A stretch of 64,000 nucleotides of DNA from Peptococcaceae bacterium BRH_c4b (GTDB taxonomy: Bacteria; Bacillota; Desulfotomaculia; Desulfotomaculales; Desulfocucumaceae). The DNA lies in assembly GCA_000961595.1 (NCBI GenBank), contig LADO01000058.1:62001-126000 (forward strand), read 5' to 3'. Below, piece after piece: positions 76 through 53,193 of this stretch (its first letter is position 1; each line of letters starts with the position of its first letter). Below the pieces are notes generated by a model, which had not been told where the DNA came from, did no database searches, and was given only the letters and a program-made list of their open reading frames with translations. The position numbers were made by a program, and so were the translations under genes.

Positions 76-375
76 AAAAAACACTTTTGATCCCTAAGGG
101 ACGAAAAGTGTTTTTCGCGGTACCACCCTGATTGAGCCTGATCTAGACCCCTCTTTATGCAGGTACAGGAATAAAATTCCTTATACCCCCTTCCTTTTAA
201 CGGTGGAAGTTTCCGTCTTGACCTACTTGCCCTAAGTGGTTTCAGTCAGGCAGTTCAAGGGTGAACCTTCAACGGCAGTTACTTTAGCAGCGCTTTCAGT
301 CCATGACACTGCCTCCCTGAGAAGCCCTAACGTTTACTTTACCCTATCATCACTTTACATATTCAATAAAATATT
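76..375 (-). promoter_or_regulatory. T-box riboswitch leader (gene lies left of window)
   Basis: The minus strand carries the T-box core AGGGTGGTACCGCG (complement of 116-129) followed directly by a terminator hairpin: a 12-bp stem, 77-88 pairing with 104-115, and a T run. Upstream are an AGTA-type motif near 330 and a CCGTTA element near 200, as in T-box stem I and stem III. T-box leaders bind uncharged tRNA and let transcription continue into aminoacyl-tRNA synthetase, amino acid biosynthesis or transport genes. The regulated gene begins at or beyond position 1; an ATG at 8-6 is a possible start. I could not assign the specifier codon with confidence. Confidence 0.88.
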
Positions 376-43592: not shown

Positions 43593-44201
43593 CTATCCCA
43601 TTTCAGATTTCAGCTCAGTGACTCTGTTGCATAAACGCTTTAAAAGAGGCCCATCATGACTAATAACAAGCACTCCCAGGTTGCGCTTATGCACAAGGTC
43701 AAGCACCACATGCCAGATTTGTGCCTGTGTAATAGCATCTAGCATAGCGGTTATCTCATCTGCAATAAGGTAGCGGGTCTGTGGTCCAAGCGCCCGCGCC
43801 AGACAGAATCGCTGCAGCTCGCCACCTGACAGCTCGTTGGGCCAGCGGCTGAACCACCCTTTTTCAATACTGAGCGATGTGAGCAGATCATCATTGGGTT
43901 CCCAGCCCTCAGTGAGGATGTCACACATGCGCCAGCGAGGATTAACCGCTTTCTCGGGATGCTGGAATACGAGCTGCACAGGGTTGTATCCGGTTGCAGG
44001 CAGGGGATTCCCGTCCAGTTCCACGTTGCCCTCAAGGGGACGTTCGTAACCGGCAAGAATGCGTGCCAGTGTTGTTTTACCAAGTCCGCTGGGGCCGGTG
44101 AGACCAACTATTTCGCCAGGTTCCAGTTTTATGTCCACCCCACGCAATACCCACTGACCGGACTCGTAACGAAAACCAATTCCACGTGCTTCAAGCGGCA
44201 T
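43593..44201 (-). CDS. Nickel/peptide-type ABC transporter, ATPase 2
   Basis: 202 residues, shorter than typical NikE/OppF, because the C-terminal substrate-class extension is absent. Walker A GPSGLGKTT, signature LSGGELQRFCLARAL, Walker B YLIADEITAMLD, H-loop VISHD. It overlaps the first ATPase gene by 11 bases. With the other ATPase it powers the NikABC-type importer. Confidence 0.9.
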   Translation of the reverse strand: MPLEARGIGFRYESGQWVLRGVDIKLEPGEIVGLTGPSGLGKTTLARILAGYERPLEGNVELDGNPLPATGYNPVQLVFQHPEKAVNPRWRMCDILTEGWEPNDDLLTSLSIEKGWFSRWPNELSGGELQRFCLARALGPQTRYLIADEITAMLDAITQAQIWHVVLDLVHKRNLGVLVISHDGPLLKRLCNRVTELKSEMG

Positions 44202-45189
44202 GGATACACCTCACCATTCCACCCCGCAACTCACGCTCCTTGGGTCGTACAGATGCACATTCGGGTGTAGCTATTTTGCAGTTCGGCTGAAAAAGGCATC
44301 CCGGCGGCAGCGCATCCGGTGATGGTTGGGCACCTGGTGTTGCCACGAATTCGTTTTTCGCCAGTGCTCTCCACAGGGCCTTGCTGTACGGATGGCGCAG
44401 AGCCTCACCATTATCCGTAAAGTCTGCCACTAAAGCTATTTCAACGGTGGTGCCTGCATAAAAGACGGCAATGCGATCAGCAATGGTAAGCGCAGCTTCT
44501 ATATCGTGGGTTATGAGCATTACTGCACGGTCCTCGTCGGCCAGTTCCCGCAAGTGATTCAAAGTTTCCTTAACTACTGCCGGATGCAAACCCGGCGTAG
44601 GCTCATCAGCTATGACCAGCCGGGCATCGCTTATGGTTGCAGTGGCAACCAGCACCCGCCGGGCCATGCCACCCGAGAGTTGGAAAGGAAATAGCCCTTT
44701 CACCTGATCTGCCAGGTGATACCGGTCAAAAACCCGGCGCTGTGCCTTGGCGGCTTCACTGCCGTGCGCAGCCGAGCGAACCTGAAACCCCACCCGCATG
44801 AGGGGGTCGAGAAAGTTTACCGACTGCGGCACCAGAGCGATCTCCCTCCCCCGCAGTGACATCTGTCGCTCAGGTGTAAGGTCTTCATTTACATAAAGCA
44901 TGGTTCCGGATATCCGGGCGTTATTTGGCAAAATACCAAGGATGGCGTGGGCCAGCAAACTCTTACCGGAGCCACTGGAGCCCACTACTGCGAGGATCTC
45001 GCCGGGCCGGACAGTAAGGCTGAGGCTGGTGATAACCGTTAGAAATCTCATCTGCAGACCGCCTGTATATTGCACAAACGACACCGAAAGATCCCGCACA
45101 TCGAGGAGCGGCATCATAGTGCCTCCGGTTGACGCTTCCGGTATTGTGGTTGATGTGTTTTGCGAAACAGCTGTTTGGTTAGACATCAT
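44191..45189 (-). CDS. Nickel/peptide-type ABC transporter, ATPase 1
   Basis: 332 residues after AAGGAGAAAA. Walker A GSSGSGKS, signature LSGGMARRVLVA, Walker B LVIADEPTPGL, and a C-terminal oligopeptide-transporter extension with Cys (GCLFQPNCKIATPEC). The first 25 residues are a polar extension. NikD/OppD class. Confidence 0.9.
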   Translation of the reverse strand: MMSNQTAVSQNTSTTIPEASTGGTMMPLLDVRDLSVSFVQYTGGLQMRFLTVITSLSLTVRPGEILAVVGSSGSGKSLLAHAILGILPNNARISGTMLYVNEDLTPERQMSLRGREIALVPQSVNFLDPLMRVGFQVRSAAHGSEAAKAQRRVFDRYHLADQVKGLFPFQLSGGMARRVLVATATISDARLVIADEPTPGLHPAVVKETLNHLRELADEDRAVMLITHDIEAALTIADRIAVFYAGTTVEIALVADFTDNGEALRHPYSKALWRALAKNEFVATPGAQPSPDALPPGCLFQPNCKIATPECASVRPKERELRGGMVRCIHAA

Positions 45190-45225: not shown

Positions 45226-46095
45226 TTACTCCTGTGCGGTGTGCGGGTCGATAAGCAACCGCAAGTTGTCACCAAGGGCATCGAAGGCCCGCACCATCAC
45301 CAGCAGGGAAAGACCAGGAAAAAGTGCCAGCCACCACTGCCCGGTTGATAGATGCCGCATCGATTCCGACAGTATAACGCCAACTGCAGGCTGATGGGGG
45401 GACAATCCAAAGCCAAGGAAGGTGATGGCAGCCTCATGCAGTATGGCATGCGGAAACAGCAGCACCAGGCCCACGAGAAGCTGCGGCACCAGATGCGGCA
45501 GTAAATGTCGCGTGGCTATCCACCAGCGGGACCTGCCGAGCCGGCGAGATAATTGTACATATTCCGAGGTTCGAAGCTGTAACACTTCGGCACGAATGAC
45601 CCGCGCAAGGCTGGGCCAGTGCGTGATGGCGACTGCAATAATTACTCCCCTAGTCCCGCCACCCATCGCAAAAGCGATGAGGATGAGCACCACGATATGC
45701 GGCAGGCCGAGGAAAATATCTACAAGCCATGTGACAGCGCCGTCAACAGTCCTGCCCATGGTAGCGGCGGCCAAACCAAGGGTGAGAGCAAAAAATACGC
45801 TTACGGTAGAAGCCAGCATTCCAACGCCGAGGCTTACAGTCAGTCCCTTCAGGGAGCGGGCGAACATATCCCGGCCAAGCCAATCCGTACCGAAGGGATG
45901 CTCAATGGAGGGCGACAAGCTTCGTTCCTCAAAATTTGTCATCAGTTTCTCGTTGCTCAGGAGAAACCCTCCAATTACCACCCCGAGCAACAGCGCAGCA
46001 GCAATCGCCATGACAAGCACCGTGATCTGCCGGCGATTAAGCCTCGGCAGTTGGCTAATGTGTGATTGGTTGATTGTTGTGTCTGTGTAGCTCAT
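45226..46095 (-). CDS. Nickel/peptide-type ABC transporter, permease 2
   Basis: 289 residues, six membrane segments, NikC/OppC class. The cytoplasmic EAA-type loop reads VQLSRRLGRSRWWIATRHLLPH, and GTDWLGRDMFARSLKG is typical of the N-terminal part. The start overlaps permease 1 in ATGA. Confidence 0.92.
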   Translation of the reverse strand: MSYTDTTINQSHISQLPRLNRRQITVLVMAIAAALLLGVVIGGFLLSNEKLMTNFEERSLSPSIEHPFGTDWLGRDMFARSLKGLTVSLGVGMLASTVSVFFALTLGLAAATMGRTVDGAVTWLVDIFLGLPHIVVLILIAFAMGGGTRGVIIAVAITHWPSLARVIRAEVLQLRTSEYVQLSRRLGRSRWWIATRHLLPHLVPQLLVGLVLLFPHAILHEAAITFLGFGLSPHQPAVGVILSESMRHLSTGQWWLALFPGLSLLVMVRAFDALGDNLRLLIDPHTAQE

Positions 46096-47084
46096 ACTGA
46101 CCCCCCCAGTCTAATCCGGGGATCCACAAAGCGGTAAATGATGTCCGCAAGCAGATTTCCGGTAAATACAAACAGTGCACTAAAGATAACAGCGCCCAGC
46201 AAAAGCGGCACGTCTCCCCGTAAACCTGCCGCCACAGTGGCCTGCCCGAGTCCAGGGTATGAAAAAACCTGTTCCGCCAGTACGGAACCGCCGAACAACT
46301 CGCTTAAAGACGCGAACTGCAAAGTAATGGCAGGCAGGGCCACGTTGCGCATGCCGTGCCGCCATAGTATGGCCGGCTCCGACTCACCCTTGGCCCGGGC
46401 GAACAGCACATAATCGCTGGCCAGTACGTTTACGAGTTTTTGCCTGGTATGCAGGGCCACGTTTGCCACGCCGATGATGCTCAATGTAACTGCAGGTAAG
46501 ATCATGTGTCTCAGATGGTCGCCAAGGGTCACTTCATCGGCAGGCACACCCATGGGAACCCCCAGCCCCACCGGCGCCCAGCCAAGCCACACGGCAAAAA
46601 CAATAAGCAGCAAAAGCCCCAGCCAGAACGCAGGCGTGGAGGCCAGGGTGAGGCAGTAACACTTGATGAGACGGTCGATCCAGGTGCCTTGCCTTGCGCC
46701 CGCTATAATGCCCAGCACAAACCCCAACACCCCGGAGAACACCCAGGCCGCTCCCATCAGTACAAGTGAAGCAGTAAAACGCTCCTGGATCACATCAATG
46801 ACTGGCCTGCGAAAAATCATCGAGGTACCGAAGTCGCCGTGAACCACCGCAGAGCCCCAGCGTACAAATCTCTCCAGCGGCGGTGCGTTCAGCCCCCAGT
46901 ACTCGGCAATCTCCGCCCGCTGCTCGGGACCTACCCGCATCATGTCGGCGCCGACGTATGCCTGAACCGGATCAATAGGCGACTGGCTTACAAGCCAGAA
47001 GGTGATGGCGCACAGCGCAATCAGCAGCACTGCCAGCCTTACGCTTTTATGACCGATGTAAATCAACGCGCTTCCCATACGCAC
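46092..47084 (-). CDS. Nickel/peptide-type ABC transporter, permease 1
   Basis: 330 residues, NikB/OppB class with six membrane segments. SDYVLFARAKGESEPAILWRHGMRN is the ATPase-docking loop. GTG 47084 or ATG 47078 both fit the ribosome site AGGGAG. Confidence 0.92.
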   Translation of the reverse strand: MRMGSALIYIGHKSVRLAVLLIALCAITFWLVSQSPIDPVQAYVGADMMRVGPEQRAEIAEYWGLNAPPLERFVRWGSAVVHGDFGTSMIFRRPVIDVIQERFTASLVLMGAAWVFSGVLGFVLGIIAGARQGTWIDRLIKCYCLTLASTPAFWLGLLLLIVFAVWLGWAPVGLGVPMGVPADEVTLGDHLRHMILPAVTLSIIGVANVALHTRQKLVNVLASDYVLFARAKGESEPAILWRHGMRNVALPAITLQFASLSELFGGSVLAEQVFSYPGLGQATVAAGLRGDVPLLLGAVIFSALFVFTGNLLADIIYRFVDPRIRLGGSV

Positions 47085-47106: not shown

Positions 47107-48708
47107 TCATTCATTCCAGCGCCACTCTACAATGTTGGCGGTGATGGGCCAGCCGTGTCCATGCGGTTCTATTCTCTGTTTGCCGGTGTTCAGGCCATCC
47201 CGGATGAAATAGCAGTGATCCAGGTTCACCAGCCACGCCCATGGTGCATCTCCCACGGCGCTTACACCTGTTTTACCGTCCCACTGAGCCTTCTTCCAGT
47301 ACTCCAGCGCCTGGTCCTTATTGGTCGTGCCAAGTGCCTTGTCCATGTAATCGTCCACTACCGGATTACTATAAAAACCTGCATTAAAATGTTCTATTCC
47401 GCGAGTTTTGCTGCTGTACAGATTGTACATCTCCAGCGGGTTGTGGCTTCCCCAGCCAAAAAGTACCGCATTGGCATGATTCATGGTCTTGATTTCATCC
47501 CAGCTTTTCCCCACAACATTGATGGAAATACCAAGTGGTTTTACCATATCTGTCACTGCCAGGGCCAGTGACTGGCGGGTCTGGTCGCTGGACGGGTATA
47601 GCAGCGTGAACTTTGCCTCAATATTTCCTTTTTCCAGGACGCCATCGCCATCGGCGTCTTTCCAGCCTGCGTCGGCAAGTAATTTCTTTGCCCCTTCGGG
47701 GTCAGCGTCCTTTATGACCGTTTCCGGGTTCCACCAGGGCAAATTGTCGCATACAGTATATGCCGGTGTGCCAAAGCCTTCCAGCACACCATTAACCAGA
47801 TCATTCCTGTTGATGGCGATATTAATAGCCTTGCGAATAGCAACATCGGCTGTTACGTCGTTGCCGACTGGATAACCATCCTTGTCTTTGTGACCGGACG
47901 GCACCACGGGAAACATTATTCCACGGTTATCGACGCTGTCAACAGCCAGGAGACGCATACCGGGAACCTTTTGCTTGGCCAGAACCGGCGGAACCACCGC
48001 TACGTCAACTTTCCCGGCCTTTGCAGCAGCAAAGGCCGCGTCTTCATCCAGGAACAGAAATGTAATCTTCTTAAAGAACGGTTTGGTAGCATAATAATTT
48101 GGATTGGCCTCTACAATCAGCTGCTGCCCCCTATCCCACTGCACAAGTTTATAGGGACCTGAGCCAACCGGCTTCTGGGCGTAATCCTTTCCGTGAGCAT
48201 GCTTTGGAACAATCCCGGTGGCTATGAGCAGATTTTCAAATGTCGACTGCGGATTCTTCAGAGCAAACACCACCGTGTGGTCGTTTAGAACCTTTACGCT
48301 CTCCATCACAGTGAGATCGACCACCGATCCGCTTTTTGCGGCCATTTCATAGGTGTATGCCACATCAGCCGCCGTAACCGGTTTGCCGTCTGAAAACTTT
48401 GCGTCATTACGTATAGTTACAGTCCATGTCCGGCCATCATCGCTTACCTCATAATTGGTAGCAAGGTCGTTGACAACTTTGAGGTCATTATCACGGGTGA
48501 GCAGCGTACTGTGGAAAAGAGGTGAACCGTAGCGGCCCCAGCCTGTGGTGGGATCATAGCCGGTTTCTGACTCGCCGTGGACGGCGAGCACCAGTTCATT
48601 CTTATCAGGGTTTTCATGAACACTCTTCGTCGATGAACAGCCTGCAACAAATGTAATAAGCAACACGAGCAATAATACTGTGTTTAATAAAGGTTTCTTG
48701 TTAGCCAA
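47107..48708 (-). CDS. Nickel/opine/peptide-type substrate-binding lipoprotein
   Basis: 533 residues from TTG 48708, after GGGGAG. Lipobox FVAGC, then a solute-binding family 5 protein (YEVSDDGRTWTVTIRNDAKFSDGKPVTAADV; KPVGSGPYKL). The C-terminal pattern HGHGWPITANIVEW resembles nickel and metallophore-binding members (NikA/CntA) more than peptide-binding OppA, so nickel or a metal chelate is the better guess. It heads a five-gene importer operon. Confidence 0.9.
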   Translation of the reverse strand: MANKKPLLNTVLLLVLLITFVAGCSSTKSVHENPDKNELVLAVHGESETGYDPTTGWGRYGSPLFHSTLLTRDNDLKVVNDLATNYEVSDDGRTWTVTIRNDAKFSDGKPVTAADVAYTYEMAAKSGSVVDLTVMESVKVLNDHTVVFALKNPQSTFENLLIATGIVPKHAHGKDYAQKPVGSGPYKLVQWDRGQQLIVEANPNYYATKPFFKKITFLFLDEDAAFAAAKAGKVDVAVVPPVLAKQKVPGMRLLAVDSVDNRGIMFPVVPSGHKDKDGYPVGNDVTADVAIRKAINIAINRNDLVNGVLEGFGTPAYTVCDNLPWWNPETVIKDADPEGAKKLLADAGWKDADGDGVLEKGNIEAKFTLLYPSSDQTRQSLALAVTDMVKPLGISINVVGKSWDEIKTMNHANAVLFGWGSHNPLEMYNLYSSKTRGIEHFNAGFYSNPVVDDYMDKALGTTNKDQALEYWKKAQWDGKTGVSAVGDAPWAWLVNLDHCYFIRDGLNTGKQRIEPHGHGWPITANIVEWRWNE

Positions 48709-48824: not shown

Positions 48825-48980
48825 CGATACAAACAAAAAGCCACAAAAGACACCCCTTCGAGGGAAGGAAGCGCCTTCGTGGCTATGTGTGTAGTATTTT
48901 ATTACCATATGGATTTCCCATATAAAAACAAAAACCTCGAAGAATGGCTCGTTTCTTACAGAGCTGTGCCTTCGTGGCAT
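48825..48980 (-). promoter_or_regulatory. Leader with two tandem hairpin/U-run units
   Basis: On the minus strand the word GCCACGAAGGC occurs twice, 95 bases apart (beginning at 48978 and 48883). Each starts a hairpin that closes about 40 bases later and is followed by TTTTTGTTT: 48935-48978 (CCACGAAG with CTTCGAGG, one mismatch) and 48839-48884 (AGCCAC with GTGGCT). It lies 130-270 bases upstream of the binding-protein gene. It looks like duplicated attenuators or a tandem regulatory RNA; I do not recognise a known riboswitch. Confidence 0.45.
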
Positions 48981-49143
48981 ATTTCAGATGAAACAATTAA
49001 AAAGATTAAACGACTCCTGGTCGTTCGCTGTTAATTATACTTTATTCGTTATCCATTTAAGAAAACCTTTTTTTGCCGAAATATTAAAGATCCCATTTAT
49101 CGGTTTGGTTAATCTGTTTTAACTACGTCTAACAGCATACGTC

Positions 49144-49953
49144 TTATTTCCTGGCCCTTATAAATGCGCTTACTATCGATCCATTTAACTCATAGAGCTC
49201 ATTTGCAGAAAGTCCTGGAACAATCGACGCCGCCGACGGACCTGTTAAGTCATAAACTCTGGTTACCTGCACTTCGATGTCTGTAAAACCGGCTTTGGCA
49301 AGTTTTTCCCTGTATTCCTCTTCCAGAAGGGCGCCGGCCACACAACCTGCCCAGGCCATTAAGTCCTGTTGTAGCTTCTGAGGTAGGGGCCTGGTCAGCA
49401 CGATGTCTGAAACGGCAAACCGGCCACCGGGTTTTAACACCCGGTAGGCTTCCTGAAGTACCCTGTCTTTGTTTGCGGATAAGTTAATGACGCAGTTGGA
49501 TATAAGCACATCTACCGTATTATCAGGCAAGGGAATATCCTCTATATGCCCTTTTAAGAACTCCGCATTGCTTATACCAGCCTTAACCTGATTGGCCCTG
49601 GCCTCGGCCAGCATTTCATCGGTCATGTCAAGGCCGTAAGCTTTGCCGCTGGAACCTACCCGCCGTGCGGACAAAAGCACATCCAGTCCGGCTCCGCTGC
49701 CCAGGTCCAAAACCACTTCTCCTTCATGCAGCTCGGCCAGGGCCGTGGGGTTTCCGCATCCAAAAGAGGCGGCAACGACATCCTGAGGTAAGCCTTCCGT
49801 CTCATCCAGCCGGTATAAATCACTTGTAATCATACTGGCATTGCTTAGCGGATCACCACAACAGCAACTACCGCTATTTCCACAGCAACCGTTTTTCTGT
49901 GTAATGGCCCGGGCATAATTTTTCCGGACGAATTCCCTTACATCTTCACTCAT
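49144..49953 (-). CDS. arsM: Arsenite methyltransferase
   Basis: 269 residues. Methylates As(III) with S-adenosylmethionine. SAM-binding [15 protein letters not shown]; conserved Cys in [14 protein letters not shown] and [14 protein letters not shown], and Cys in [11 protein letters not shown]; plus a Cys-rich N-terminal stretch ([15 protein letters not shown]) common in ArsM. ATG 49953 follows AGGGAGGA. It is last gene of the ars operon. Confidence 0.95.
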
Positions 49954-50003
49954 AAGTAGTCCTCCCTACATCAATTTATTTTGATATAACAAGCTAAAAA
50001 AAA

Positions 50004-50321
50004 TTACTTTAAGGCAAAATCATGGTTTAGCTGTTGTATATATTCTCTTAGTGTTTTTGTGTTAATAAAATAGACTCTCCACTTTCCCCGTGGTTCTTCG
50101 TTTACTAAACCGGCTTCAATTAATTCTTTCATATGATAGGAAACTCGTGACTGGATCATACCGAACTCAGCCATCAATTCACAATTACACAGGCCCGGAC
50201 GGCGGTCATCTTCGCCGGGCAAAGGGCAGCAGCAGCCAGTTTCTTTTTGGGCCAGCATTTGCAGAATTTTGTAGCGAATAGGGTCGCTTAAGGCTTTAGC
50301 AATTTTAATACTATTAACCAT
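50004..50321 (-). CDS. arsR: ArsR-family repressor 2
   Basis: 105 residues. Winged helix (QSRVSYHMKELIEAGLVNEE) preceded by a Cys-rich loop: GCCCPLP and GLCNCELM. The CNCEL pair sits where As(III)-sensing ArsR has CVCDL, and the extra CCC may add ligands. It lies inside the operon, between a thioredoxin-like gene and arsM. Confidence 0.9.
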   Translation of the reverse strand: MVNSIKIAKALSDPIRYKILQMLAQKETGCCCPLPGEDDRRPGLCNCELMAEFGMIQSRVSYHMKELIEAGLVNEEPRGKWRVYFINTKTLREYIQQLNHDFALK

Positions 50322-50363
50322 AGTATTAAAATATCATCTTTTTTTGATGTTAGCAAGACACAC

Positions 50364-50612
50364 TTATTTTTCTTCTTCGATATACTTTTTAACATCTTTT
50401 TTGCTCAGTACTTTACCTGCAGACTTGACTTTTCCGTTGATTACCAGACCAGGTGTAAGCATTATACCGTGACTCGCAATCTCTTTTATGTCCGTAATTT
50501 TTTTGATTTCAGCAGTAAGGCCGGTTTCACCCAATACTTCCTTTACCATATTCTCCAGTGCATGGCATTTGGAACAACCCGTACCGAGTACTTTTATTTC
50601 CATTTCTCTCAT
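50364..50612 (-). CDS. Small thioredoxin-like protein (CxxC)
   Basis: 82 residues. EIKVLGTGCSKCHALENM has the CxxC redox motif and TPGLVINGKVKSAGKV the cis-Pro loop. It belongs to the small redox-active disulfide (glutaredoxin-like) family often found in ars operons; it may reduce arsenate-related disulfides. The family role is not established. Confidence 0.85.
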   Translation of the reverse strand: MREMEIKVLGTGCSKCHALENMVKEVLGETGLTAEIKKITDIKEIASHGIMLTPGLVINGKVKSAGKVLSKKDVKKYIEEEK

Positions 50613-50648
50613 ACACCCCCTTTCGAATATTTACAGTTTATAGAATAA

Positions 50649-51368
50649 TCATGTCCGTCCTGTTCTGATGATTTCTGCAAACTCACGGGGAAGTCCCACC
50701 TGCTCAATTTCTTTGGCGGCATCCTCGTAGTTATACGGAACCTCAACTATTTGCCCTATCAATTCGCCGCCTGCAACTTCCAGTACCAAGTAAGTTACAT
50801 TAGGATTGCCGTGTTTGGGCTTGCCGGCACTGCCCGCGTTGACGATGTAGCCGGCAGAGGTTTTCTTTATATATGAAAGGTGAGTGTGGCCGCAAACCAG
50901 TATATCGGCGCCAACCTCATCAAGCAAATCTTTTATATAGTTTTCCGGTGTATCCTCGTAAAGATACTCATTTAAAGCCCTGGGGCTGCCGTGAACAAAC
51001 AATATTTCCATCCCGGAAAAGATAATCCTGATTTCTTCAGATAATTCTCTTAGCCACTGCTTGTTGGTTTCCGAGGTATTATCCTTGGTCCATAAAAGGG
51101 ATTTCTCAGCCAGTTGTAATGATCTTTCGTCTTTATAATCGCACCCGCACATAAGCCTCAGATTACCTATGGCGTCGTCGTAATTCCCCATAACCGTGGG
51201 TATGTTGAGTTTTCTAATGAGGTCTATAACCTCATTGGGACGAGGCCCGTAGCCCACTAAATCACCGGTGCAAAAAATATCTGTTACACCCTTTTCCCCA
51301 ATATCCTTTAAAACGGCTTCAAGTCCGTAAAGATTGCTATGTATGTCAGAAATCACAGCCAATTTCAT
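50649..51368 (-). CDS. Metallophosphoesterase (YfcE/MJ0936-like)
   Basis: 239 residues. All metal motifs are present: SDIHSNLYGLEAVL, GDLVGYGPRPNE, MGNYDD, and GHTHLSY. Hydrolyses phosphate mono- or diesters in the cytoplasm. Its position between two thioredoxin-like genes in an arsenic operon suggests a link to arsenate/phosphate stress, but the substrate is unknown. Confidence 0.85.
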   Translation of the reverse strand: MKLAVISDIHSNLYGLEAVLKDIGEKGVTDIFCTGDLVGYGPRPNEVIDLIRKLNIPTVMGNYDDAIGNLRLMCGCDYKDERSLQLAEKSLLWTKDNTSETNKQWLRELSEEIRIIFSGMEILFVHGSPRALNEYLYEDTPENYIKDLLDEVGADILVCGHTHLSYIKKTSAGYIVNAGSAGKPKHGNPNVTYLVLEVAGGELIGQIVEVPYNYEDAAKEIEQVGLPREFAEIIRTGRT

Positions 51369-51381
51369 ATTTTCTTTATAC

Positions 51382-51627
51382 CTACCTTTTTATTTCTTGC
51401 GTAATGTAGTTTAGTATTTTATTGTCATTGGGAATAATGCCGTTAAACTTTAATTTACCGTTAACCACGAGCCCGGGCGTGGACAATATCCCGTATTGCA
51501 TAATTTCTACAGTATCTTCTGTTATTTCTATATCTGCCTCGATATTGTTACTTTGGCAGTACTGTGAAATCATTTCAAACAATCTTTGCGCGTGCCCGCA
51601 GCAGGAGCCAAGTATCTTTATGTCCAA
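51382..51627 (-). CDS. Small thioredoxin-like protein (vicinal Cys)
   Basis: 81 residues, relative of the 50364-50612 protein with the same fold and TPGLVVNGKLKFNG loop, but the redox motif reads GSCCGHAQ: a vicinal Cys pair rather than CxxC. Vicinal thiols bind As(III) well, so it may be an arsenic carrier or chaperone; that is inference. Confidence 0.8.
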   Translation of the reverse strand: MDIKILGSCCGHAQRLFEMISQYCQSNNIEADIEITEDTVEIMQYGILSTPGLVVNGKLKFNGIIPNDNKILNYITQEIKR

Positions 51628-51731
51628 AGCCTCTTACCTCACTTTTTAGTTATTAAGTAAGTTGAATTTATTTAGCATTCACTCCTGAAATTCTATGGGA
51701 GCTGGCCCGGCCAACTCCTTTTTATCATTTA

Positions 51732-52796
51732 CTAATGTATCAATCTATGTCGTGATGTAAAGTATTTTTGTTTAAAGCCCAACGCTACATTAACCAAGCC
51801 AATCATAACCGGCACTTCTATAAGCGGACCAATAACCGCGGCAAAAGCCTGGCCGGAATTAATCCCAAAAACTGCAACAGCTACTGCAATTGCAAGTTCA
51901 AAGTTGTTGCTGGCAGCCGTAAACGCCAGTGTGGTAGACTGCTCATAATTCACGCCAGCCCTCTTACTTAGGAAAAATGACAGTAAGAACATTATTATAA
52001 AGTAGCACAGCAACGGCGCTGCTATCCTTAGAACATCCAGTGGGAGCGATATGATATAATTGCCTTTCAGAGAGAACATTACAATTATAGTAAATAACAA
52101 AGCAATTAAGGCCAGAGGGCTTATGCTGGGTACAAACTTTTTATCGTACCAGTCCTTACCTTTGGCCGGGAGTAGTATAAATCTGGTTATAACCCCGGCA
52201 ATAAAGGGAATACCCAGGTATATGGCAACGCTTTTCGCTACTTCAGCCATGGAAATGTGTACCTCCATTGATTCCATGCCAAGCCACCGGGGAAATAAGG
52301 TTACGAAAACGTATGCGTAGACAGAGAAGAAAAGCACCTGGAAAATAGAATTAAGTGCAACCAGCGCCGCTGCGTATTCCGAGTCTCCCTTGGCCAGTGA
52401 ATTCCAGACTATGACCATTGCTATGCAGCGGGCCAAACCGATAATTATAAGCCCTGCCATATATTCCGGATAATTACGCAAAAAGATGACAGCCAGCACA
52501 AACATCAAAACAGGGCCTATAATCCAGTTCTGGATAAGCGAGAGTGTCAGCACCCTGCCGTTTTTAAACACTTTACCGATCTCTTCGTATTTAACCCTGG
52601 CCAGCGGAGGATACATCATCACTATTAGGCCAATAGCAATTGGAACAGAAGTAGTACCGACCTGAAAACTATTAAGCCAACCAGCTACCTGAGGTACGGC
52701 ATAACCCAAAGCAACACCTATAAACATAGCCAAGAATATCCACACTGTCAAAAATCTGTCCAGTAATGATAGCTTTGCCGAAGCTTTCTCAGCCAT
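51732..52796 (-). CDS. acr3: Arsenite efflux permease ACR3
   Basis: 354 residues from ATG 52796 ([15 protein letters not shown]), after GGAGGTGAAAG; the frame extends upstream into arsR but without support. Ten membrane segments, with the ACR3 Cys in [13 protein letters not shown] and conserved [17 protein letters not shown]. Extrudes arsenite using the proton motive force. Confidence 0.95.
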
Positions 52797-52824
52797 ACTT
52801 TCACCTCCTGCACTATTTAAATAT

Positions 52825-53193
52825 TTATTCCTCACATACAGTCTTACTAAAACCAAGCAATTCACAAAGATTTGGGTTCTGTCTTAACTGAGAAGGCTTG
52901 GGGTCGCCGTCTGAAAACAGTGCAAGATCTTGCAAGAAACAATGAAACTGGTTGAAAAAATCTCTAAGCCCCTCTTTGTTAAGTGAATAAAAAACAATTT
53001 TACCCTGCTTGTCAGTTGCAACAAGGTTGGCCTGCTTTAACGTTTTAAGGTGGTGTGAGACTGCCGGCTGTGATAACCCGATAACATTTATAATCTCACA
53101 CACTCCCATTTCCTGCTCAGATAAGAGCTTTAAAATATTTTGCCTGTGTGTGTCTGATAATGCTTTTAAGACATTACTCATAGCTTCATTCAT
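52825..53193 (-). CDS. arsR: ArsR-family repressor 1
   Basis: 122 residues from ATG 53193 ([14 protein letters not shown]). Winged helix [23 protein letters not shown]. Only one Cys (MGVCEII) lies at the classical site; two more are near the C-terminus (NLCELLG, TVCEE), suggesting a different sensor site. It heads the ars operon, 28 bases before acr3. Confidence 0.9.

Follow-up and report, generated by a model that had tools for sequence, protein, structure and literature searches.

A widespread, probable RNA on/off switch before nickel-type uptake genes of anaerobic bacteria, found in tandem upstream of an importer operon

Why would an importer operon of a Peptococcaceae bacterium be preceded by two copies of the same hairpin and T-run unit? 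This question was raised by a first-pass annotation of the DNA stretch analysed here (64,000 nucleotides, hereafter the window), which noted two units with a common opening and ending, 95 bases apart, before a binding-protein gene, and proposed that this importer, of the nickel/peptide type, is tuned by serial attenuators of the kind typical of tandem riboswitches. We conclude that this leader is a real, widespread RNA on/off switch of anaerobic bacteria that precedes nickel-type (possibly cobalt) uptake genes and is present in tandem at this locus. The RNA element is apparently previously undescribed, as judged from open-access literature, in which the lack of any description is a weak sign of absence.

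Architecture of the leader in the window

Two hairpin and T-run units lie on the minus strand upstream of the binding-protein gene (47107-48708) of a NikA-type importer operon, exactly where the annotation had placed them. Unit 1 begins with GCCACGAAGGC (48978-48968) and ends with the stem closure CTTCGAGG (48942-48935), followed by TTTTTGTTT (48934-48926). Unit 2 begins with the same GCCACGAAGGC (48883-48873) after a step of exactly 95 bases, and ends with the closure CTTTTGTGGC, whose last base is 48840, again followed by TTTTTGTTT (48839-48831). Each unit can adopt two mutually exclusive structures, which are either a mini-hairpin called P2 (NNCC-AYGAA-GGNN) or a terminator that uses the 5' strand of P2. 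A further hairpin, P1, was missed by the annotation and belongs to the element; a relative (L089/L130) carries a hairpin nearly identical to it. All features are collected in Table 1.

Table 1. Features of the leader and its importer operon (positions in the window)
Feature	Positions	Strand	Basis or remark
TATAAT, promoter -10-like hexamer, weak -35	49034-49039	minus	sequence; ends 7 bases before P1; putative role
P1 hairpin GAACGAC-CAGGA-GTCGTTT, 7 bp, NNGRA pentaloop	49008-49026	minus	-6.2 kcal/mol
P2a mini-hairpin TGCC-ACGAA-GGCA, unit 1, antiterminator form	48967-48979	minus	-4.6 kcal/mol alone
Terminator stem-loop a, shares P2a 5' strand	48935-48978; T-run 48926-48934	minus	sequence, folding, covariation
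Gate a	48926-48979	minus	
Palindrome ATATGG-GAAAT-CCATAT between units	48900-48922	minus	violates P1 loop rule
P2b mini-hairpin GCC-ACGAA-GGC, unit 2	48873-48883	minus	sequence, covariation, folding
Terminator stem-loop b, shares P2b 5' strand	48840-48883; T-run 48831-48839	minus	sequence, folding, covariation
Gate b	48831-48883	minus	
NikA/OppA-type substrate-binding protein (SBP_bac_5), TTG start	47107-48708	minus	~122 nt after gate b
Permease, NikB/OppB type	46092-47084	minus	homology
Permease, NikC/OppC type	45226-46095	minus	homology
ABC ATPase, NikD/OppD type	44191-45189	minus	homology
ABC ATPase, NikE/OppF type	43593-44201	minus	homology

P2 alone is predicted to fold with -4.2 to -4.6 kcal/mol and the terminators with -14 to -27 kcal/mol. 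Unit 2 (gate b) folds at -26.9 kcal/mol with a z of -5.1; for both units together z is -5.3, and unit 1 alone folds ordinarily (z -1.5). Given the difference in energy between P2 and gate b, this gate should be off by default, and because gate b is far stronger than gate a, the latter may be leaky. The competing hairpin comprises only about 4-5 bp, and therefore something must stabilize P2. For this role, a protein is no less suitable than a ligand.

A strict sigma-70 scan gave no promoter match at the window leader. For the palindrome between the gates, an operator function is conceivable, as is descent from a P1 that has degenerated. Upstream of P1, after about 117 bases, is the end of arsM (49144-49953), which forms part of an arsenic-type cluster on the minus strand (49144-52865); ArsM was tested, and the ArsR-like regulators, small thioredoxin-like proteins and Acr3-like permease were assigned by reading only. 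The operon proteins are near NikA/OppA types by HMM, and since none reaches an equivalog cut-off, a nickel substrate is not proven from these proteins alone.

When the whole window was searched with Rfam 15 at the gathering threshold, no family was detected at the leader, and a T-box leader (94-359, minus strand, 109.2 bits, above the gathering score) was the only match. Down to E 10, four matches fall in the leader, all far below threshold and none to guanidine-II or NiCo RNAs. The annotation had recognized that guanidine-II RNA does not fit despite a similar loop, and was right to do so, as the loops are pentaloops rather than ACGR tetraloops.

Conservation and distribution among relatives

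Structure models were needed to find relatives, because DNA similarity is too diverged; a DNA search of the own genome gave nothing better than E 0.5 beyond the window copy. Model R1 was built without gene information from 11 hand-picked leaders, which belong to NikA-type operons in 10 cases and to a CbiM operon in the eleventh. A covariance search with this model, of the kind that the annotation had recommended, recovered the element family in 77 of 113 class genomes (E 0.01) and 75 of 398 phylum genomes (E 0.001), with up to 21 clustered copies per genome (R1 E-values are approximate, filters were strict in the large searches, the genome sets drawn overlap and many genomes are drafts). An HMM of 74 relatives, with own-genome sequences excluded, found both units (E 1.1e-8 and 3.2e-7) as its only significant matches in the 64 kb (next best E 0.16), where the sequences were held out but the column layout was not, as the alignment was fitted to R1 and R1 was built with the window units.

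The annotation had also advised looking before NikA-type genes. Among 80 loci with NikA-type homologues from named genomes, nine carry the element (L009, L010, L012, L020, L028, L036, L038, L050 and L052); they belong to anaerobic Bacillota and to two MAGs, one assigned to Actinomycetota and one to Solincola, which we take to be Actinomycetota as well. The nine genomes behind these loci hold 37 R1 matches at E 0.01, including 12 in a Desulfosporosinus MAG and eight in Formimonas warabiya. The element is absent from the other 71 loci, which are mostly from Bacilli (E 1, 531 kb of background). Occurrence at random places, which the annotation had named as the sign of a small mobile repeat, was thus not observed: the background holds no match and the association with genes is strong.

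For comparative anatomy, 60 regions around matches were fetched, chosen by score and clustering with gene content ignored. From 70 sources, 173 matches were obtained at E 0.1; the best 150 were aligned, and 131 were left after overlapping matches were dropped. The loops of P2 in 120 distinct segments are ACGAA (67), ATGAA (39), ACGGA (6), ATGGA (4) and others (4), and the inner CC/GG pairs are almost invariant. Standard pairing extends to the third pair in 113 segments (shuffled mean 94.7); at the fourth pair it is seen in 99 (shuffled mean 56.3). In 78 relatives, 93.2% of P2 cells are paired, compared with 81.0% (sd 1.2) in shuffles and at most 49% in slid registers, and the covariation score is 0.355 vs 0.129; P2 was absent from the model used to build this alignment. 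The terminator is paired in 96.5% of cells, with a covariation score of 0.272 vs 0.192.

Of 112 non-redundant first units, 69 are preceded by a P1 hairpin whose loop is N(N)GRA, where 5.5 would be expected from shuffles; no P1 was found in the remaining 43. Its closing pair is C-G in 56 of the 69, and loop positions 1-2 are free. This loop class, picked after the data were seen, numbers 74 in a slightly larger set without redundancy removal, and seven other loop classes number 4-12. The spacer between P1 and P2 is freely variable (median 47 nt, range about 24-73 nt). Tandem arrangements recur, with 12 pairs within 400 nt among the 131 matches, 62-363 nt apart; in those of the pairs that were read by eye, no P1 was seen for the second gate. 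Patterns resembling the SigH promoter consensus were detected in 32 of the 128 stretches upstream (mononucleotide shuffles predict 0.7), and P1 is therefore often near a likely transcript start. This upstream sequence pattern suggests that transcription of many element-linked metal genes depends on an alternative sigma factor.

Downstream genes, the metal and candidate factors

The element precedes genes for NikA-type and FecB-type importers, NikM/CbiM, cobaltochelatase-like proteins, [FeFe] hydrogenases, CooC-like proteins, FmdE and DUF3842, all named by homology. By simple gene calls, 126 of the 131 matches have a same-strand downstream ORF in the fetched stretch, which lies within 400 nt for 104 and not for the other 27. 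Within 450 nt, 99 distinct first ORFs were counted, and 68 of them fall in the following clusters, representatives of which were checked: SBP_bac_5 (21), FecB-type SBP or CobN pieces (10), CbiM (7), ABC ATPases (7), permeases (7), DUF3842 (6), [FeFe] hydrogenases (4), FmdE-like (4) and CooC-like (2). The remaining 31 comprise four methyltransferases, three Cu_amine_oxidN1, two Gate, two flavin reductases and 20 singles.

Individual genomes illustrate this gene set. One island (L152) has seven minus-strand elements in about 13.4 kb, which precede CooC-like, FecC-type, NikABCDE-type, FmdE-like and DUF3842 genes. In Anaerovirgula (L226, 582-1517, minus strand), the element is followed by a truncated nikA, by larB split over two frames and by larC, and the lar genes encode AIRC and Ni_insertion domains. 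Other copies in the own genome are located before NikM-PDGLE and DUF3842-NikM genes. A copy in a genome of the same family (L090, 242-295) lies beside a RidA-like gene near a contig end, with no obvious metal gene after it.

[FeFe] hydrogenases are nickel-free replacements, and CooC and LarB/LarC act on nickel. Since these proteins and PDGLE proteins are in the regulon, nickel is favoured over cobalt and is most likely the metal involved; cobalt is possible and would fit the CobN-like, chelatase and CbiM genes. A clear NikR is encoded by one of the 113 class genomes (G051), which is element-negative; the other 20 NikR_C matches are weak and all are at the coordinates of TM1266-family proteins. 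Zhang et al. 2009 (PMC2667541) detected NikR in less than half of the NikABCDE-bearing organisms and deduced a control that does not depend on NikR.

Three protein families were compared with the element by their distribution as candidates for the factor that acts on it, and none is established. ANTAR proteins are encoded by 99 of the 113 class genomes and by 72 of the 77 element-positive ones; the five carriers without a match (G010, G081, G087, G092 and G099) include incomplete genomes, and the loop of the element is wrong for this family. The TM1266 family (TIGR03959) is found in 90 of 113 class genomes but has no match in G033 or G034, which have 21 and 11 elements, respectively, and is rejected for this reason. 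DUF3842 (PF12953) is encoded by 75 of 77 element-positive vs 14 of 36 element-negative class genomes, and by 73 of 75 vs 108 of 323 phylum genomes, in counts that are not corrected for relatedness and come from sets that share genomes. Its gene often adjoins the element. However, DUF3842 gives no match in G114 despite four good elements there, and it is predicted to have a Rossmann-like rather than an RNA-binding fold, the neighbours being UbiX-like proteins and dehydrogenases. Sequence relatives with a solved structure were not found below E 0.4, and the word DUF3842 is absent from the open-access literature searched. We keep DUF3842 as a regulon partner and not as the factor.

Proposed mechanism, rival explanations and known systems

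We propose, with a probability of roughly two in three, that the leader mediates transcription attenuation of the importer through P1 and two successive P2/terminator gates, and that an RNA-binding factor causes antitermination upon nickel starvation. By default, each gate would fold as a terminator and transcription would stop. Under shortage of the metal, most likely nickel, the factor would bind both P1 and P2 at their loops, which resemble each other (N(N)GRA and AYGAA, respectively); this factor is most likely the metal-free form of an RNA-binding regulator. P2 held in this manner would block the terminator, and the importer would be expressed. Two gates in series would presumably provide a tighter off state. 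The proposal draws on features read from the sequences, namely P1, P2, the terminators with their exclusion and covariation, the regulon and the near absence of NikR. Weighing against it are the cobalt-compatible genes, the 31 first ORFs outside the clusters, the 27 matches with no ORF within 400 nt, the 43 first units in which P1 was not found, the lack of a second P1 in tandem units and the possible leakiness of gate a. The initial suggestion of serial attenuators tuning an importer is supported, as the terminators have a competing hairpin and the family lies before nickel/cobalt-type uptake genes.

A true riboswitch, whose two hairpins would bind a small metal-shortage ligand or a metal without any protein, as in guanidine-II RNA, is an unlikely alternative. 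In its favour, the element is a compact pair of hairpins, with loops that are conserved and a spacer that is free, the loop nucleotides (ACGAA and ATGAA above all) are conserved beyond the need for pairing, and tandem copies are common among riboswitches. However, no Rfam riboswitch matches up to E 10, a switch that is off by default and turned on by bound metal would be the wrong kind for importers, and the free positions 1-2 of the P1 loop leave no conserved loop-loop kissing. We consider it very unlikely that the element is the target of a known ANTAR protein recruited to metal genes, even though the logic is the same, with P1 plus a P2 embedded in the terminator (PMC8934654), and ANTAR proteins are widespread in the class. 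The target RNA of these proteins has a hexaloop with A at position 1 and G at position 4 (PMC3369931, PMC8934654), whereas the hexaloop register of the element (slide +1) has only 49.0% of cells paired, against 93.2% for the pentaloop register, and loop position 4 is A in at least 106 of 120 P2 loops. The spacers of the element vary freely, but an added 20 nt abolishes EutV action (PMC8934654), and five element-positive genomes, some incomplete, have no ANTAR match.

Constitutive tandem terminators, for example of the upstream arsM, would account for the nearby arsM end and for stems that are good terminators, and would leave the conserved sequence without regulatory use. This is improbable to a similarly high degree, as many genomes retain the element in front of metal genes that are unrelated to one another, as none of the 71 background NikA-type loci has it, and as P2 covariation and P1 would have no role in a plain terminator. 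Ribosome-dependent attenuation at a leader peptide hardly merits belief. CAY-GAA-GGN could encode His-Glu-Gly, the alternation of C and T at loop position 2 agrees with a His codon and one relative (L089) has such an ORF, yet the three frames are equally open (12.4-12.6 codons) with equally frequent starts (35%), Shine-Dalgarno-like sites occur in at most 2.3% of 130 leaders, and the frame is not the same in the two units of the window. Similarly far-fetched is a small mobile repeat, for which the numerous clustered copies might speak; these copies differ in stem and loop, precede a coherent gene set and are absent from background loci, and the DNA search of the own genome described above revealed no close copy.

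The element is a concrete candidate for NikR-independent nickel control among sulfate reducers, syntrophs and related anaerobes, in which hydrogenases and CO dehydrogenases depend on nickel. The regulon that it defines helps to assign transporters, DUF3842, FmdE and TrmO neighbours to nickel metabolism, and it points to an RNA-binding sensor or ligand that can be searched for directly. A broader reading, on which we are evenly divided, is that the element represents a new class of nickel-status RNA switch, either a riboswitch or the target of a new metal-sensing antiterminator family that recognizes C-N(N)GRA-G hairpins. It would stand in for NikR class-wide, in further genomes of Clostridia type and in a few of Actinomycetota type, and would govern a whole nickel regulon that includes importers as well as nickel-free hydrogenases and has as many as about 20 leaders in a genome.

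Several known systems resemble the element in part. Guanidine-II (mini-ykkC) RNAs likewise have two small hairpins with ACG-containing loops, but their loop is ACGR rather than AYGAA, they serve guanidine rather than metal uptake genes, and the element has no Rfam match. The NiCo (czcD) riboswitch is a nickel/cobalt RNA leader with a four-way junction that controls efflux; it has no Rfam match here, and the element sits before importers. NikR would serve the same purpose of nickel uptake control, but is a DNA-binding protein and is nearly absent from the class. BglG/SacY-type elements have another RNA shape and belong to sugar genes. They share with the element the use of exclusive antiterminator/terminator structures (PMC3369931). 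The ANTAR (EutV/NasR/AmiR) elements are alike in having a free P1, a P2 in the 5' arm of the terminator and termination by default. Exclusive covarying helices and an upstream hairpin with a like loop are also common to both (PMC3369931, PMC8934654). They differ in their A1/G4 hexaloops, as the element has a P2 pentaloop and a P1 tetra- or pentaloop with GRA at the 3' side, and in their nitrogen and ethanolamine genes, as the element has metal genes, a long variable spacer and some carriers without an ANTAR match. Because the loops do not follow the ANTAR rule, an antiterminator of a non-ANTAR family, active at low nickel, is proposed. With its covarying terminator and exclusive alternative hairpin located 5' of genes, the element has the general hallmarks of a regulated intrinsic attenuator.
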